Below, piece after piece: positions 2,594 through 34,913 of a DNA stretch of 64,000 nucleotides (positions are counted from its first letter, which is position 1; every line of letters starts with the position of its first letter). The stretch comes from Glutamicibacter arilaitensis Re117. Its GTDB lineage: Bacteria > Actinomycetota > Actinomycetes > Actinomycetales > Micrococcaceae. Location: the NCBI RefSeq assembly GCF_000197735.1, contig NC_014550.1:1116001-1180000 (forward strand). Reading direction: 5' to 3'. Both the position numbers and the translations under genes were made by a program. Under the pieces are notes generated by a model, which was not told where the DNA came from, made no database searches, and was given only the letters and a program-made list of their open reading frames with translations.

Positions 2594-3817
2594 ATGGATT
2601 GGGTGAGCTCCCAGAAAACTTTCATTCCAGCCGGACACCCACGCCGGGTCAGCCTGATCGGTTCCACCGGTTCCATCGGCACCCAAGGGTTGGACGTCAT
2701 CGACGGCGCCCCAGAACTCTTCACGGTGGCTGCCATCAGCGGTGGCTACAACCTTGAACGGCTCGCGCAGCAGGCAGTCAAGCACCGTCCCGCCTTGGTT
2801 GGCAGTGCTGTTGAATCCAAGGAAGAGCTCGCAAGAGCAATCCAGCAGGCTGCAGAACAGGCTTCCGTGAGCGGCTATGCACCGGAACTGGCGGTCGGCG
2901 AGCTCGCTGCCACCGAGGTGGCGGCGTACACCGAAGCCGATGTGGTGCTCAACGGAATTACCGGTGCCATTGGACTGGCTCCGACCATCGCAGCTTTGGA
3001 AGCAGGGCATTTGCTGGCCCTGGCCAACAAGGAATCCCTGATTATCGGCGGACAGGTAGTCAAGCAGATCGCGGCCCCCGGCCAGATCTCACCGGTGGAT
3101 TCGGAGCATTCGGCGTTGGCCCAGGCGCTGCGTTCTGGTGCTCCTGAAGAAGTAGCCAAGTTGCTGGTCACCGCCTCCGGTGGCCCGTTCTTCGGCTACA
3201 GCTACGAGCAGCTGCGCAACGTCACCCCAGCGCAGGCACTGGCTCACCCTACTTGGGACATGGGACGCATGGTGACCACTAACTCGGCCACGATGGTCAA
3301 TAAGGCACTGGAAGTCATCGAAGCCCACCTGCTCTTTGACGTGCCGCTGGAAAAGATTGAACCTGTTGTGCACCGCCAATCCATCATCCATTCCATGGTG
3401 GAGTTCATCGACGGATCGGTCATCGCGCAGGCCTCGCCGCCGGATATGCGCCTGCCAATCGCCTTGGGCATCAATTGGCCCCACCGTGTGCCCGGGGCTG
3501 CCAAGGCCTGCGATTTCTCCACCGCGGCAAGCTGGACTTTCGAACCGTTGGATGAGGAAGTCTTCACCGCCGTCAAACTGGCTAAGCAGGCCGCCTCTGC
3601 TTCCGGTACTCACATGGCCCTCTACAACGCAGCCAACGAAGTTGCCGTGGATGCGTTCCATGACGGAAAGATCGGCTTCACCGACATCGTGGAAACCATT
3701 GAACGCGTACTGAACGAATACACTCCGGCCAGCGATGAGCTATCGGTTGCAACGGTGATGGACACGGACCGTTGGGCCCGAGCCCATGCCGCAAAGATCG
3801 TGGAGGCCAAGGCGTGA
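2594..3817 (+). CDS. dxr: 1-deoxy-D-xylulose 5-phosphate reductoisomerase
   Basis: Second enzyme of the MEP isoprenoid pathway: NADPH-dependent conversion of DXP to 2-C-methyl-D-erythritol 4-phosphate. 407 residues. Recognised from the N-terminal NADPH fold RRVSLIGSTGSIGTQGLDVI, the NGITGAIGLAPT and LANKESLIIGG segments, the metal/substrate motif SPVDSEHSA, the flexible-loop region around ASGGPFFGY and AHPTWDMGR, and NAANEVAVDAF near the end. The last bases overlap the GTG start of the site-2 protease gene (GTGA), so the two are translationally coupled. dxr-rip-ispG is a conserved actinobacterial order. Confidence 0.97.
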   Translation: MDWVSSQKTFIPAGHPRRVSLIGSTGSIGTQGLDVIDGAPELFTVAAISGGYNLERLAQQAVKHRPALVGSAVESKEELARAIQQAAEQASVSGYAPELAVGELAATEVAAYTEADVVLNGITGAIGLAPTIAALEAGHLLALANKESLIIGGQVVKQIAAPGQISPVDSEHSALAQALRSGAPEEVAKLLVTASGGPFFGYSYEQLRNVTPAQALAHPTWDMGRMVTTNSATMVNKALEVIEAHLLFDVPLEKIEPVVHRQSIIHSMVEFIDGSVIAQASPPDMRLPIALGINWPHRVPGAAKACDFSTAASWTFEPLDEEVFTAVKLAKQAASASGTHMALYNAANEVAVDAFHDGKIGFTDIVETIERVLNEYTPASDELSVATVMDTDRWARAHAAKIVEAKA

Positions 3818-5163
3818 GCGCACTGCTATTCATTGGCGGGGTCCTGTTCATGGTCGTGGCCGTAGGCCTATCCATTGCCCTGCACGAGATCGGCCACTTG
3901 GTCCCCGCGAAACTGTTCAAGCTGCGCGTGCCGCAATACATGATCGGCTTCGGCAAGACCCTGGTTTCATTCAAGCGCGGAGAAACCCAATACGGCATCA
4001 AGGCCTTGCCCCTGGGCGGTTACATTTCGATGGTGGGCATGTACCCGCCACGTGAGCAGGTAGCTTCCGAGAAACCGGGCAAGAAGCCGAACCTCTTCCA
4101 AAAGGTTTTCGGCCAGATGGTTGATGATGCGCGCTCGCAGGCCAATGAAAACGTCCTGCCCAGCGACGAAGGCCGGTTGTTCTACCAGCTGCCAATCTAC
4201 AAGCGGATCATCATCATGCTCGGCGGGCCCATCATGAACCTGATCATCGGGTTCGTGGTCATCACCATTGTGCTGACAAGCTTTGGCCAGGCTACGCCGA
4301 CCACCACGGTCGCCGAGGTGTATCAGTGCATCGCCAGTGCGCAGAACGCGAATCAGACCGAATGCACCGATGAGGATGTCACGGCACCAGCCTATGAAGC
4401 TGGATTGCTGCCGGGAGACACGATCACCGCCGTAAACGGTGCCGCCGTCGCACAGGCTGAATGGAACAAGCTCACCGACGTCATCCGGGATCATCCTGGA
4501 GAACCCATCACCCTTGACTACGTCCGCGACGGGCAGAGCCACTCTACAGAGCTGACTCCGTATCTGACCGAGCGCCCGGCCACTGACGAAAATGGTTACG
4601 TACTGCTCGATGAGCAGGGCGAGTACATTATGACCAAGGTCGGTTTCGTTGGCATGGGATCCTTGCAGCAGGACCTGACCCAGCCCTTGAGCGCGGTTCC
4701 CGGAGTGATTGGGGATCAGCTGCTGAAAATTGGCGATGTCATCTTGCATCTGCCGCAGCGCATGGTGGATGTCGCCCAAGCCGCGTTTGGCAGCGAGGAA
4801 CGCGACCCCAACGGTCCGGTGTCCATTGTGGGCGTAGGACGCATCGCAGGCGAGATCAGCGCCGAGGGGTCCATTTCGGTCGCCGACAAGTTCGCAACCT
4901 TGCTTTCACTGGTCGGCGGGTTGAACCTGGCCCTGTTCGCTTTCAACTTGATTCCGCTCTTGCCACTTGATGGCGGCCACGTCGTAGGCGCGCTCTATGA
5001 AGGACTCAAGCGCATGGTCGCGAGGATTTTCAAGATCAAGAAGATCAAACCCGTTGATACGGTCAAGCTCTTGCCGCTGACTTACGTGGTCGTGGTGGCA
5101 ATGCTGGTCATGGGCGGGCTCTTAATATATGCAGATATCTTCAAGCCAATACAGCTGTTCTAA
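3814..5163 (+). CDS. site-2 intramembrane metalloprotease (RseP/Rip1 family)
   Basis: A zinc metalloprotease embedded in the cytoplasmic membrane that cuts transmembrane substrates such as anti-sigma factors after a first cleavage. 449 residues from GTG 3814, which overlaps the dxr stop. The active-site HEIGH motif is at residues 24-28 in the first transmembrane helix; the third zinc ligand is in LLPLDGGH near residue 385-392; a PDZ domain with a DTITAVNG segment lies between. The last 40 residues form another membrane helix. In mycobacteria the orthologue (Rip1, Rv2869c) processes several anti-sigma factors including RskA, and a SigK/RskA pair is present 28 kb away in this window, so RskA is a plausible substrate (inference). 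Confidence 0.93.
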   Translation: MSALLFIGGVLFMVVAVGLSIALHEIGHLVPAKLFKLRVPQYMIGFGKTLVSFKRGETQYGIKALPLGGYISMVGMYPPREQVASEKPGKKPNLFQKVFGQMVDDARSQANENVLPSDEGRLFYQLPIYKRIIIMLGGPIMNLIIGFVVITIVLTSFGQATPTTTVAEVYQCIASAQNANQTECTDEDVTAPAYEAGLLPGDTITAVNGAAVAQAEWNKLTDVIRDHPGEPITLDYVRDGQSHSTELTPYLTERPATDENGYVLLDEQGEYIMTKVGFVGMGSLQQDLTQPLSAVPGVIGDQLLKIGDVILHLPQRMVDVAQAAFGSEERDPNGPVSIVGVGRIAGEISAEGSISVADKFATLLSLVGGLNLALFAFNLIPLLPLDGGHVVGALYEGLKRMVARIFKIKKIKPVDTVKLLPLTYVVVVAMLVMGGLLIYADIFKPIQLF

Positions 5164-30695: not shown

Positions 30696-32261
30696 TCACT
30701 GCACCGTGAACTGCAGACGCTGCCAGCCGCTGGCGCCATTGGGCACCGGGTTGGCTTTTTCGCTGGTCTGCAGCTGTCCTTGCGCGTCATAGGCCCGCAC
30801 TGTGGCTGAATGCATGCCGGGGGCAGCATCTTTCCACGCGAACCGCCACTGCCGCCAGGTATCCACCGAGGCCTCGGCTGCCAGCTCGGCATCTTCCCAC
30901 GGAGAGTCATCGATCTGCACCTGAACGCGCGAGATGCCCCGGGTCTGCGCCCACGCGGTTCCGCCCAGCACCACTTCGCCGGCAGGGACCTTGGCGAACG
31001 GGCGGGGCGTGTCGATCCGGGAGGACATCTTGATTGGACCGCGCTCGGACCAGCCACGGGTAGTCCAGTAGGCAGCCTTGTCCTGGAATCGGGTGACTTC
31101 CAAATCCACCACCCATTTGGTGGCCGAAACATAGCCATACAGGCCCGGAACCACCATGCGCACCGGGAACCCGTGCTCAAAGGGCAACGGTTCGCCGTTC
31201 ATGCCGATGGCCAGCAGCGCCATCCGGTCATCGGTCAGGGCCTGGATCGGAGTGGAAGCACTGAAGCCGTCATGCGAGGCCGAGAGAACCATGTCAGCCC
31301 CGTCCTGCGGCACCGCACGCTCAAGCAATTTGCGCAGCGGATAGCCCAGCCACTTGGCATTGCCTACTAGATCGCCGCCAACAGGATTCGAGACGCAAGT
31401 CAGCGTCAGATAGGTTTCCACCAGCTCTTGGTTCAGCAGTTCGTCGAAGCTCATGGTGAATTCGTTCTCCACCATGCCGTGAATTCGCAAGGACCACTGT
31501 GCCGGGTCGATTTGCGGTACCGAAAGGGCTGTATCGATTCGGTAGAAATTCTGGTTCGGAGTCACGAATCGGGGCATATTTGCCTCAGCAACCTGAACCC
31601 CAGCGGGCAGGGCTTTTGCCTTGGTTCGGGCTGCAGGCAAGCGTAGTGCCTTTCGTGCAGCATCGGCCATGTTGCGCGAAGCGGAGAGGGATGTCGAAAC
31701 GCCGGTAGCAATGGCAGCGGCAGCCAGCGACAAGGCTGAGCTGAGCAAGAAAGTTCTGCGGCTAGGGCCGTGGCTGCCGGCATCTTCGCCTGGACGTGCT
31801 GCAGTGGCTGAGGCCAGCCGGTTGAGCCACTGCAGAACACCCATGCCGGCAACCGCGCCGAGCACCGTCGGCAGGACATCGATCAGGCTGGTGGAGGCAC
31901 GAGTGACCACAGCGCTTGCCATCACCACGGCTAGACCGATAATGGCGGCGCAGGCCAATGCGAAACTTCGCTTGGCCAGAAGCCCGACCAACACGGACAG
32001 TGCCGTTGCCACCACACCTATGGAAATGAACAGCGCCAGCTTGTCGTTGGTGCCGAAAGTTGCAATGGCGAAGTCCTTGAGCCATGGAGGAGTCAGATCG
32101 ATGATGGCCGAGCCCAGGGCGAAAAATGGTGATGAGGCGCTGTTGAAAAATGCCGAGGCGAATTGGGCGACAGCGAACATGACTGTCGCTGCACAGAATC
32201 CAGCCACCGCGTGGAATACGAGAACTCTGCTGTTGCGTTTCTTGGAAATGCCCACTGCCAC
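30696..32261 (-). CDS. membrane-anchored molybdopterin-dependent oxidoreductase (sulfite oxidase family)
   Basis: 521 residues. Five predicted membrane helices (about residues 13-38, 44-60, 74-95, 98-118, 128-147) are followed by an internal twin-arginine-like SRRTFLLSSALSLAAAA (167-183), then a sulfite-oxidase-type molybdopterin domain (RFVTPNQNFYRIDTAL, molybdenum ligand Cys289 in TLTCVSNPVGG, GLYGYVSATKWV) and a C-terminal immunoglobulin-like dimerisation domain. The catalytic part is probably outside the membrane. It has its own SigK-like promoter and lies downstream of rskA-sigK. Natural substrate unknown; relatives act on sulfite or repair methionine sulfoxide. Confidence 0.88.
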   Translation of the reverse strand: MAVGISKKRNSRVLVFHAVAGFCAATVMFAVAQFASAFFNSASSPFFALGSAIIDLTPPWLKDFAIATFGTNDKLALFISIGVVATALSVLVGLLAKRSFALACAAIIGLAVVMASAVVTRASTSLIDVLPTVLGAVAGMGVLQWLNRLASATAARPGEDAGSHGPSRRTFLLSSALSLAAAAIATGVSTSLSASRNMADAARKALRLPAARTKAKALPAGVQVAEANMPRFVTPNQNFYRIDTALSVPQIDPAQWSLRIHGMVENEFTMSFDELLNQELVETYLTLTCVSNPVGGDLVGNAKWLGYPLRKLLERAVPQDGADMVLSASHDGFSASTPIQALTDDRMALLAIGMNGEPLPFEHGFPVRMVVPGLYGYVSATKWVVDLEVTRFQDKAAYWTTRGWSERGPIKMSSRIDTPRPFAKVPAGEVVLGGTAWAQTRGISRVQVQIDDSPWEDAELAAEASVDTWRQWRFAWKDAAPGMHSATVRAYDAQGQLQTSEKANPVPNGASGWQRLQFTVQ

Positions 32262-32284
32262 TCACCTCATGCGTTGCGATCCAT

Positions 32285-32309
32285 GTTCCCCTGCGGAATA
32301 CAGGGGAAC
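32285..32309 (-). promoter_or_regulatory. hairpin in the leader of the molybdoenzyme mRNA
   Basis: GTTCCCCTG pairs perfectly with CAGGGGAAC around a 7-nt loop, between the SigK-like promoter and the start codon. It could end read-through from rskA or shape the 5' end of the message. Confidence 0.4.
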
Positions 32310-32324
32310 AACCACTCATAGTGT

Positions 32325-32352
32325 TTTCGGAACAGGCAGCGCTGCGGATTGG
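32325..32352 (-). promoter_or_regulatory. SigK-type promoter candidate for the molybdoenzyme gene
   Basis: On the minus strand, CCAATCC (32352-32346) is followed after 15 bp by CCGAAA (32330-32325). The same arrangement, CCAATCC-N15-CCGAAT, precedes the fasciclin gene at 34689-34716. M. tuberculosis SigK sites are CCATCC-N16/17-CCGAAT, so the -10 element is the same. The expected start of transcription is about 57 bp before the GTG. Confidence 0.6.
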
Positions 32353-32378
32353 AATCGGCTACAAGAAATTGTGCAGAT

Positions 32379-33200
32379 TTACAGCGACTGGACCATGATG
32401 GGATCTGTTGTCGGGGCAGGGGAGCCGGTGGCCGGCTCGACAGTGATCCCGAAGTGCGTGACTCCCTGCATGGGATCTGAAAGCATGATCATGCCGTCGG
32501 CATCGCCACCAGCGAGCATACCCGCAGGAATCGCCCCATCGGACGAAATCAGCCACAGCTCGTAGCCTTTGTCGCTCGACAGCTCGGGCATGCCAGAAGT
32601 GGATACTGCCATCAGGCCCTCAGCAGCGGAGTAGGACAATGTGATGCGAGCCCCGTCATCCAGTGTCTGGGTTTTCGACTTGGCATCGGGAGCGCTGAGG
32701 ATCTTGGTGAGCTCTTCTTGATGCGAGGCCATGGCAGCCAACTTGTTTTCAAGCTCGCGCTGCTGGGAGGTTTGGTTAATAGCTAATCCGCCCAAGGCCA
32801 CCGCTGCTAGCAGCAGCACGCCTGCTGCCAAGGCGAAGAAGCGTTGCGTACCGCGTCCTGATCCTGCCTGCGGGGCCGGAGGTTGCACCGGGGAACCGGA
32901 TTCAATTTTAGCGTCACTAGTTGGAGCGCTCACGGGGGCGCTGTCCATGGCAGGCTCCTGGTCCTCAGCGGGAGGCAACTGCTCGGTGGTGCGGATGGCG
33001 GCCATAACGCTGCTCTTCAGCCGTGCCGGAGGAGCGATCGGCTGTGCATCAAGGCCTAGCAGCCCAGCAGTTTCCTGCAGGGCATCGAGCTCGTGGCGAG
33101 CCGGGGCGGAATCAGGATACTGGTTCAGCTCTTCGCGTTCATGTTCTCCCAAAGCATCCAGGGCGAAGGTATCGGTCCGCTCGTTCTCATGCTTGTCCAT
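32379..33200 (-). CDS. rskA: anti-sigma-K factor RskA
   Basis: 273 residues. The cytoplasmic N-terminus (about 1-75: RTDTFALDALGEHEREELNQY, ARHELDALQETAGLLGL) is the SigK-binding part; a single membrane helix (FFALAAGVLLLAAVALGGLAI) follows at about 125-145; the extracytoplasmic C-terminus has the RskA fold (GLMAVSTSGMPEL, KGYELWLISSDGAIPAG, FGITVEPATGSP). Its ATG overlaps the sigK stop (TAATG), the usual coupling for a sigma/anti-sigma pair. In mycobacteria RskA is cut by the site-2 protease Rip1, whose homologue is encoded at 3814-5163. Confidence 0.92.
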   Translation of the reverse strand: MDKHENERTDTFALDALGEHEREELNQYPDSAPARHELDALQETAGLLGLDAQPIAPPARLKSSVMAAIRTTEQLPPAEDQEPAMDSAPVSAPTSDAKIESGSPVQPPAPQAGSGRGTQRFFALAAGVLLLAAVALGGLAINQTSQQRELENKLAAMASHQEELTKILSAPDAKSKTQTLDDGARITLSYSAAEGLMAVSTSGMPELSSDKGYELWLISSDGAIPAGMLAGGDADGMIMLSDPMQGVTHFGITVEPATGSPAPTTDPIMVQSL

Positions 33201-33757
33201 TACGCCACTCCCATCAGGTCTCGAAGTTTGCTCATTCCATCGCGTATTCGCGTTTTGGCGGTTCCCACCGGTATTTTCAGCATCTCGGCGACTTCCAGGT
33301 GGGTATATCCGCCAAAGTAAGCCAGGTGTATGGCCTCGCGCTGCGGTACGGTGAGCCGTTGCAGTGCTTGGGAGACGCGCTGGGCTTCATCTTGCAGGAT
33401 GGCGTTTTCTTCCACGTCATCGTAACTGTCTTCGAAGTCCTTGATTCCAATGCGCAAATCCCGTGCCTGGCTTGCTTGGCTCGAACGCACCCGGTCCACG
33501 GCCCGGCGGTGGGCAATGGTCAGTAGCCACGAAGCGGCGGTGCCTCTTGCCGGATCAAATCGCCGGGCCTGTTGCCAGGCTTCGACGAAAGCTTCCTGGG
33601 TGACTTCTTCACTCTGTGCCCTGTCGCGAAGCACCCGCAGCACGAGTCCGAAAACTCGGGAAGCCATGGCATCGTAGAGCAATTCGAAGGCAGACTCTTC
33701 TCCCAGCGCGACCTGTTGCATCAGGGCGTCTGGTGTGCGAACGGAATCGTCTTCCAT
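33200..33757 (-). CDS. sigK: ECF RNA polymerase sigma factor SigK
   Basis: 185 residues from ATG 33757; in-frame starts up to 33811 exist but homology begins near TPDALMQQVALGEESAFELLYD. Region sigma-2: FGLVLRVLRDRAQSEEVTQEAFVEAWQQA with RFDPARGTAASWLLTIAHRRAVDRVR; region sigma-4: LTVPQREAIHLAYFGGYTHLEVAEML and KIPVGTAKTRIRDGMSKLRDL. This is the SigK/SigL-type ECF group regulated by RskA. Two matching promoter-like sites lie before the molybdoenzyme and fasciclin genes; none was found before sigK itself, so autoregulation is not supported here. Confidence 0.93.
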   Translation of the reverse strand: MEDDSVRTPDALMQQVALGEESAFELLYDAMASRVFGLVLRVLRDRAQSEEVTQEAFVEAWQQARRFDPARGTAASWLLTIAHRRAVDRVRSSQASQARDLRIGIKDFEDSYDDVEENAILQDEAQRVSQALQRLTVPQREAIHLAYFGGYTHLEVAEMLKIPVGTAKTRIRDGMSKLRDLMGVA

Positions 33758-33884
33758 GGCGTCGAGTCTATTTGAACTCATGAATCCTAGAGTCTCACGC
33801 ATCGGTGTCAATCGGGTTGTTTGCTCAGGCGTGGCGTTTCGCGAAAAGTCCAGCCTCGGGAATCAATCACTCATTGCACCAGCG

Positions 33885-33920
33885 AAGGTGATGCCTGGAT
33901 TAAACTCCACGCATCACCTT
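33885..33920. terminator. hairpin between fasciclin gene and sigK
   Basis: AAGGTGATGC pairs perfectly with GCATCACCTT across 16 nt. It lies 31 bp after the fasciclin stop and upstream of sigK, so it can end the fasciclin transcript. Confidence 0.55.
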
Positions 33921-33950
33921 CATGCCGGCGGCCTTGCGATTCTGCTGATG

Positions 33951-34613
33951 CTACTTCTTGGCTGGCGGCATCAGGACGGTGTCCACCAGGTACACGGTAG
34001 CGTTGGCGGTCTGCACGCCACCGCAGATGACCGAAGCGCCATTGACCTCGAGGTCGTCGCCGCTGCCGGTGACTTCTACATCCTCGCCCTGGACGGTTGC
34101 ATGGGTTCCGGGAAGATCATCTGGTGCGATCTGGCCGGGAATCACATGGTAGGTCAGGATGCTGCTCAGGGTGTCCGCGTCCTTGGCCACAGCGGCCAGG
34201 TCATCCTTCGGGATTGCGGCGAATGCGTCATCAACCGGAGCGAAGACGGTGAATTCGTCGCCATTGAGGGTGTCGACCAGGTCAACGTCCGGGTTCAGCT
34301 TTCCGGAAACTGCGGAAGTCAGCGTGGTGAGCAACGGGTTGTTGGAAGCTGCAACGGCCACTGGATCCTTGGCCATGCCTGCTACCGAACCGTCACCGGT
34401 TGGCACTGCTTCGGCGTAGGCGGCGCAGCCGCTGCCCACGAGATTGCTTGCCGGATCCATTGCAGATTCGCTTGCCATCGGCGAGCTGCTTTCCGATGCG
34501 GAGGCGGTGGGTGATTCCATGGTTTCCGAACCGGTCGAGCAGGCGCTCAGTCCCATGGCGGCGACTGCGATGAGCCCGAATGCTCCAGCGACTTTGCTGT
34601 ATGTGCGCTTCAT
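33951..34613 (-). CDS. fasciclin-domain lipoprotein (MPT83/MPT70-like)
   Basis: 220 residues. Lipoprotein signal [24 protein letters not shown], a Ser/Glu-rich spacer, then one FAS1 domain with [22 protein letters not shown], the H-box-like [14 protein letters not shown] and the terminal [14 protein letters not shown]1 proteins mediate adhesion or small-molecule binding outside the cell. In M. tuberculosis the FAS1 proteins MPT70 and MPT83 are the main SigK targets, and here the gene lies next to sigK behind a SigK-type promoter, so SigK control is strongly suggested. Confidence 0.93.
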
Positions 34614-34688
34614 GATTTTCTCCTTGCTTCGCCGCGACTGATGTCGTCGGTCCTTTTCCTGTCCGTGCGGATCAGGTTGTCAATGAGC

Positions 34689-34716
34689 ATTCGGGGCTGG
34701 ATGCTCCACGGATTGG
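34689..34716 (-). promoter_or_regulatory. SigK-type promoter candidate for the fasciclin gene
   Basis: On the minus strand, CCAATCC (34716-34710), 15 bp, then CCGAAT (34694-34689). The -10 element equals that of M. tuberculosis SigK promoters and the whole layout repeats at 32325-32352. The predicted leader is about 70 nt. Confidence 0.65.
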
Positions 34717-34913
34717 ATTCTTTTGAAAATATTCTTGCTTCCTGCCGAAAACCCGAGAAAACCGCAGGTACTGCTTGCTGGCGAACCGGGTCTCGGGCAC
34801 TTGAAGCCCGCATTCTGGGCGAAGGCCGGAGCGTTGCCGGCCGCTGGGAATGGGCAGCGAGTGGGATCTGCCACGCTTGTTCCAGCGGGCAGGCTAATTT
34901 CCGGTACAGCCCA

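Follow-up and report, generated by a model that had tools for sequence, protein, structure and literature searches.

SigK has been studied so far for the tuberculosis antigens MPT70 and MPT83. The closest described system is SigK/RskA/MPT70/MPT83/DipZ of Mycobacterium tuberculosis, in which RskA is cleaved by Rip1 and the SigK signal is unknown (PMC7509140). The same article describes a SigK/RskA/mpt83 system in Yersinia enterocolitica and, citing Veyrier 2008, reports SigK sites conserved across Actinobacteria, which are therefore already published. Here we describe a locus of this kind in Glutamicibacter arilaitensis Re117. It lies in a stretch of 64,000 nucleotides of contig NC_014550.1 (positions 1,116,001 to 1,180,000), hereafter the window, and its minus-strand gene order is FAS1 (fasciclin) lipoprotein, sigK, rskA, and molybdoenzyme. 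As judged from sequence, it is very probable that SigK drives the FAS1, molybdoenzyme, and a distant DUF4383 unit from promoters of the form CCAATCC-N15-CCGAA, and RskA likely holds SigK inactive until an envelope signal arrives. The system is of a known kind, its novelty lying in the wiring and, likely, in the regulon members. Among the papers found by literature searches, judged by titles and abstract openings, none had DUF4383, CHRD-like proteins, or this molybdoenzyme as SigK targets, and a search on DUF4383 together with sigma factors gave no paper.

The locus shares with the one of M. tuberculosis a SigK recognized by the model NF007228, an adjacent RskA-type anti-sigma factor, an MPT70-like FAS1 protein as likely target, and targets related to the envelope. 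It differs in that the SigK cysteine pair is missing, the recognition helix carries Thr where 4nqw has Ser, the FAS1 gene stands beside sigK, the molybdoenzyme and DUF4383 are likely targets, the -35 box is CCAATCC, and no site is found before the sigK unit. Proteobacterial YedY/MsrP-type systems controlled by extracytoplasmic function (ECF) sigma factors also have a sigma/anti-sigma pair beside a molybdoenzyme that is exported and has the MsrP/sulfite oxidase fold, as here, but use other sigma and anti-sigma families. With Y. enterocolitica our locus has in common a non-mycobacterial SigK, RskA, and FAS1, the FAS1 gene being preceded by a SigK site (PMC7509140); that organism is, however, Gram-negative, the cysteines are reported to matter there, and the main text of the article does not contain "molybd". 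The same source gives both cysteines as absent from Nocardia SigK, as in G. arilaitensis, and a truncated RskA of about 80 amino acids in most Nocardia (PMC7509140), whereas the RskA described here is full length, with its hydrophobic segment and RskA_C part.

The identity of the four products is supported by model and solved-structure searches. The sigK gene (33200..33802, minus strand) encodes an ECF sigma factor of 200 amino acids, free of cysteines, which reached 255.4 bits with NF007228 (cut-off 226; matches in 0 of 14 control genomes) and matched the structure 4nqw with E = 7.6e-48. Its start is likely the ATG at 33802, because the N-terminal residues M[HR]E[TI]L..M are conserved in the nearest loci. 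By SigK, the closest named relative is Glutamicibacter nicotianae (86%), and among 16 candidate SigK stretches scored in the G. arilaitensis genome one passed E <= 1e-25, so that there is a single close SigK match. The sigK stop and the rskA start overlap at 33200. RskA (32379..33200, minus strand) is a membrane anti-sigma factor of 273 amino acids with 94.9 bits for PF10099 (RskA_C), a score above the cut-off of NF052375, and a single hydrophobic segment at residues 117-135 by hydropathy; it had no convincing match among solved structures. The FAS1 gene (33951..34613, minus strand, PF02469) encodes an MPT70/MPT83-like lipoprotein of 220 amino acids with the lipobox LSAC read from its sequence, and the MPT70 structure 1nyo matches it with E = 4.7e-57. 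The molybdoenzyme (30696..32261, minus strand, 521 amino acids) belongs to the sulfite oxidase/MsrP fold (PF00174; structure 2ca3, E = 4.7e-20). Against the NCBIfam equivalogs SorA, SoxC, SorT, and MsrP it remained far below the cut-offs, the best being SorA with 112.2 bits against 600, and by its sequence it is assignable to the fold family only. Hydropathy places hydrophobic segments at its N-terminus, followed by the RR motif SRRTFLL ahead of the catalytic part, and the enzyme is likely exported. An earlier note on this DNA had proposed a SigK/RskA/FAS1 module in a non-mycobacterial genome, which these searches and the gene order bear out.

Two predicted SigK promoters were located by pattern search in the window. 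The first, CCAATCC-N15-CCGAAT (34689..34716, minus strand), lies 75 bp from the start of the FAS1 gene, and the second, CCAATCC-N15-CCGAAA (32325..32352, minus strand), 63 bp from that of the molybdoenzyme gene. CCAATCC-N15-CCGAAW had exactly 2 matches in the window and none in 100 dinucleotide shuffles, confirming what the earlier note had said of these as the only two such sites. The boxes of M. tuberculosis SigK promoters are of the same type. Throughout the genome, CCAATCC-N14..18-CCGAA had 4 matches, 3 with N15 and 1 with N18, and the reversed pattern had none. The third N15 site is on the plus strand of the same contig (C3:3507644) and ends 79 bp upstream of the ATG of a DUF4383 membrane-protein gene (PF14325); this gene overlaps the next one, which encodes a 224-amino-acid protein with no Pfam match, and the two would form an operon. 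SigK-bound RNA polymerase would start transcription at these three sites. By our own estimate, a pattern of 12 bases would turn up about 0.5 times in a genome of such size. The two sites of the window could accordingly be due to chance, with the synteny inherited free of common regulation; this is extremely improbable, because the pattern recurs in front of the same families of genes, even at a distance from sigK, and the controls are nearly empty, as described below.

The recurrence was followed in 120 genomes of the family, searched with CCAATCCG-N14-CCGAA. There were 80 matches in 49 genomes, against 2 with the reversed pattern, and 45 of the 80 lay no more than 5 kb from a SigK locus of a set of 46 in the family; these were selected by E-value from the SigK search, the window representing its own locus. 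Relaxing the pattern to one free base ahead of CAATCC or CCATCC, N14-17, and CCGAA or CCGAC gave 83 matches in the 46 loci and 1 in the reversed sequence. A site was counted as preceding a gene if it fell in the 320 bp upstream or no further than 60 bp inside. By this measure 31 of 38 FAS1 genes had one, as did 18 of 31 for the molybdoenzyme and 15 of 17 for DUF4383. The earlier note had proposed a genome scan for such sites, and in the family genomes they do cluster at SigK loci and before genes for exported or membrane proteins. Compared over 57 sites, both boxes stood out, together with a few bases next to them. Since the support for a promoter is sequence conservation, the boxes might also be read as a place where an activator or repressor binds the DNA. 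We consider this very improbable: the boxes are unlike each other and nearly always spaced by 15-16 bp, they lie mostly some 50-105 bp before gene starts in the family loci, and they resemble those of the M. tuberculosis SigK consensus. Predicted SigK promoters are, then, the reading we retain. In 40 more distant SigK-like loci the site was found before 3 of 3 FAS1, 2 of 3 molybdoenzyme, and 3 of 8 CHRD-like genes.

Sites away from sigK were also informative. Sixteen of 35 off-locus sites (L005, L111-L125) were looked at: 3 precede DUF4383 genes, 1 a second FAS1 gene, and 9 an exported CHRD-like family, whose CHRD match is weak. From the gene side, the 30 best-scoring loci of each family were taken and a site with up to 2 mismatches was sought over 300 bp upstream; the control was a stretch of equal length at the beginning of the gene. 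For DUF4383, 25 of these best 30 loci had an upstream site (7 exact) and none a control site, at least 5 of the 30 being inside sigK loci; for the CHRD-like family the counts were 25 of 30 (12 exact) and 1 of 30. No CHRD-like protein was found in the G. arilaitensis genome, and the same query matches 45 of the 120 family genomes. In the Arthrobacter locus L079 (A. wenxiniae), a close DUF4383 homologue, a CHRD-like gene, and sigK stand within about 5 kb, and this clustering ties the distant DUF4383 operon of G. arilaitensis to the SigK system.

Several results weigh against assigning all these sites to SigK. In G. arilaitensis itself, CAATCC-N15-CCGAA has 5 matches, and the gene setting was looked at for 3 of them. 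Seven of the 38 FAS1 genes have no site directly upstream; in 5 of these (L090, L091, L100-L102) a DUF4383 gene with its own site stands first, an explanation that does not serve L103 and L104. Among the molybdoenzyme genes, 13 of 31 have no site: 3 have the one-mismatch site CCAATCT (L067, L075, L076), in 3 a DUF4383 gene intervenes between site and gene (L077, L083, L087), and for 7 none was detected. Outside the family the association is weaker, with 12 of 23 FAS1, 10 of 19 molybdoenzyme, and 0 of 1 DUF4383 genes in 60 other loci of the class, and 34 of 40, 10 of 19, and 4 of 5, respectively, in 80 named loci (6 of the 80 being repeats of loci counted elsewhere). Three of the 16 off-locus sites precede unrelated genes. 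Finally, 13 genomes with a motif match contain none of the 46 SigK loci. This last result would also suit promoters of another ECF sigma factor with overlapping specificity, as would the 16 candidate stretches of the G. arilaitensis genome, of which one passed the threshold, and a relative (G075) in which a second FAS1 gene with its own site is followed by an ECF-like gene 33% identical to SigK. Taking into account the 45 sites placed beside SigK loci and the tendency of the -35 base to track the SigK type in raw counts, we regard such a factor as improbable and SigK as the one that very probably acts on these predicted promoters.

In that relative, locus L113 (G075:C15:183500-189600) holds, at 3016-4386, the second FAS1 gene, 69% identical and with its own CCAATCC-N15-CCGAA site, followed by the ECF-like gene; it is possibly a duplicated module.

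With respect to the switch, the window SigK has A and L at the columns of the M. tuberculosis cysteine pair C133/C183. The pair is absent from 46 of 46 type-A loci of the family and from 78 of the 80 named loci, whereas 42 of the 60 further loci of the class and 27 of the 40 distant ones of the family do have it. According to PMC7509140, it occurs in 94% of the members of ECF18 and in 56% of those of ECF19, hence it is not required. Because both cysteines are absent from the predicted protein, a disulfide of this pair is excluded from the switch of G. arilaitensis SigK. RskA would restrain SigK until an envelope signal and would then be removed by regulated proteolysis, as is reported for M. 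tuberculosis (PMC7509140), which is the likely route of SigK release. The predicted regulon (a FAS1 lipoprotein, a molybdoenzyme with hydrophobic N-terminus and RR motif, and small membrane proteins) points to the envelope. Its products may protect or repair it, perhaps against oxidation, although protection from oxidative damage is only guessed at from the family to which the enzyme belongs. The repeated company of the molybdoenzyme, DUF4383, and CHRD-like genes hints at the purpose of the regulon and offers functional leads for little-known families. G. arilaitensis lives on cheese rind, and since it combines three clean promoter-like sites with a single close SigK match, a SigK free of the cysteine pair, and a full-length RskA, it would allow the signal and the FAS1 role to be studied without a pathogen.

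A key aspect of the wiring is how sigK itself is transcribed. No CCAATCC-type site precedes it in the window, and between the FAS1 stop and sigK there is a strong stem-loop without T-run (33879..33928, minus strand, -34.4 kcal/mol), possibly a terminator or a 3' end stabiliser. Folding covered 22 of the 46 loci, the window included; in 15 of the 21 others the stem-loop had -29.6 kcal/mol or stronger, with differing sequences, and in 6 (L077, L079, L080, L081, L084, L086) it was weaker. Considering the missing site and the strong stem-loop after FAS1, sigK-rskA would be transcribed from a separate promoter, and it is plausible on this sequence that sigK autoregulation is absent in G. arilaitensis. 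The earlier note had suggested no autoregulation; its statement that no site stands before sigK was correct and the absence stays plausible, given the strong stem-loop, but it had left unweighed a read-through from the FAS1 promoter, by which sigK would be autoregulated. The two genes are on the same strand and 148 bp apart, M. tuberculosis sigK is reported to be autoregulated via the promoter of an upstream gene (PMC7509140), a CCCATCC site is found about 140-310 bp upstream of the sigK match in 19 of the 40 SigK-like loci that are more distant, and the stem-loop, lacking a T-run, has no entry in a terminator scan that requires one. Set against these, the two genes are separated by a stem-loop at least as strong as -29.6 kcal/mol both in the window and in those 15 of 21 loci, so that read-through seems to us possible, though rather unlikely, and the separate promoter is preferred. 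Since those 19 of 40 distant loci have a site upstream of sigK, autoregulation likely varies within the family.

A sigma-70-like promoter at 33811..33784 was rejected as sigK promoter, as it is inside the likely coding start and unconserved in the nearest loci; a looser scan upstream of sigK matched 10 of the 46 loci, without a common position, against 68 of 920 random stretches. An Rfam scan of 32100..34900 had as sole match Ms_IGR-8 over the FAS1-sigK stem-loop (33884-33942; 23.6 bits against a gathering cut-off of 44, E = 0.037), which was taken as chance.

Spacings, and bases at the third place of the -35 box, were counted with CCxATCC-N13..19-CCGAA anywhere in the fetched loci, for 220 distinct SigK loci. 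The recognition helix reads KTR in the window SigK and KSR in M. tuberculosis SigK (4nqw), and loci were typed by this residue. The share of N15 was 118 of 132 for Thr-type CCAATCC, 24 of 27 for Thr-type CCCATCC, and 27 of 30 for Ser-type CCCATCC; rarer combinations were Ser with A (3), Ala with C (2), and G at the third place (7). In 15 genomes of a family (f10) that is likely Mycobacteriaceae, because it contains the best SigK-model scores, CCCATCC-N14..19-CCGAAT had 42 matches, 28 of them N15 (N14 6, N16 1, N17 1, N18 4, N19 2), and the reversed pattern had none. The idea of the earlier note that a 15-bp spacing would be a lineage variant is rejected, N15 being the commonest in every group sampled. 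In the -35 box the third base does vary, being mostly A or C; both versions are common, and A occurs in several families. In raw counts over 226 loci (6 of them repeats), Thr goes with A in 141 and with C in 27, and Ser with C in 30 and with A in 3; without the repeats the Thr ratio A:C is 132:27 and the Ser ratio C:A 30:3. When the tree was considered, 3 row pairs differed in the residue on supported branches, and the base followed in 1.1 on average and never in the opposite sense; from the base side there were 5 pairs and the residue followed in 0.7, which is not significant. In Nocardioides and Microbacterium, A/C varies while Thr is unchanged, and L103 (Ser) keeps CCAATCC. With strong raw counts, few independent changes, and a tree that is not significant, a Thr/Ser code for the -35 base was set aside as only a lead. 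A link of this base to cysteine loss was rejected, as 35 of 176 Thr-type loci (repeats included) have both cysteines. A broader proposal, which we put forward as tentative and doubtful, is that a cysteine-free SigK/RskA across Micrococcales and Nocardioides governs a compact envelope-maintenance regulon (FAS1, the molybdoenzyme exported by twin-arginine translocation, DUF4383, and elsewhere CHRD-like proteins), the Thr/Ser helix position reading A/C at the third -35 base. If true, one sigma residue would re-address a whole regulon.

Regarding the leaders, a stem-loop is predicted by folding in the 5' leader of the molybdoenzyme (32284..32310, minus strand). Near predicted 5' ends, leader stem-loops had a mean z, from single-base shuffles, of -2.2 for the molybdoenzyme (17 loci) and -1.75 for DUF4383 (15 loci), with differing sequences; in the FAS1 leader the mean z was -0.5 over 31 loci and no hairpin is claimed there. 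About 10 bp downstream of the -10 box, TGACAGCCC is repeated in the FAS1 leaders of many family loci, and its version in the window is TGACAACCT (34658-34682). In L196-L202 a CHRD-like gene lies up to 2 kb from a SigK-like gene in 7 of 7 loci, and in L199-L202 it is divergent from it. The genome G004 has four near-identical copies of one motif-bearing stretch on contigs C1, C10, C15, and C38, perhaps a repeated element, and at G024:C1:3476350-3476882 there is a second SigK-like match in two pieces, perhaps a decayed paralogue.

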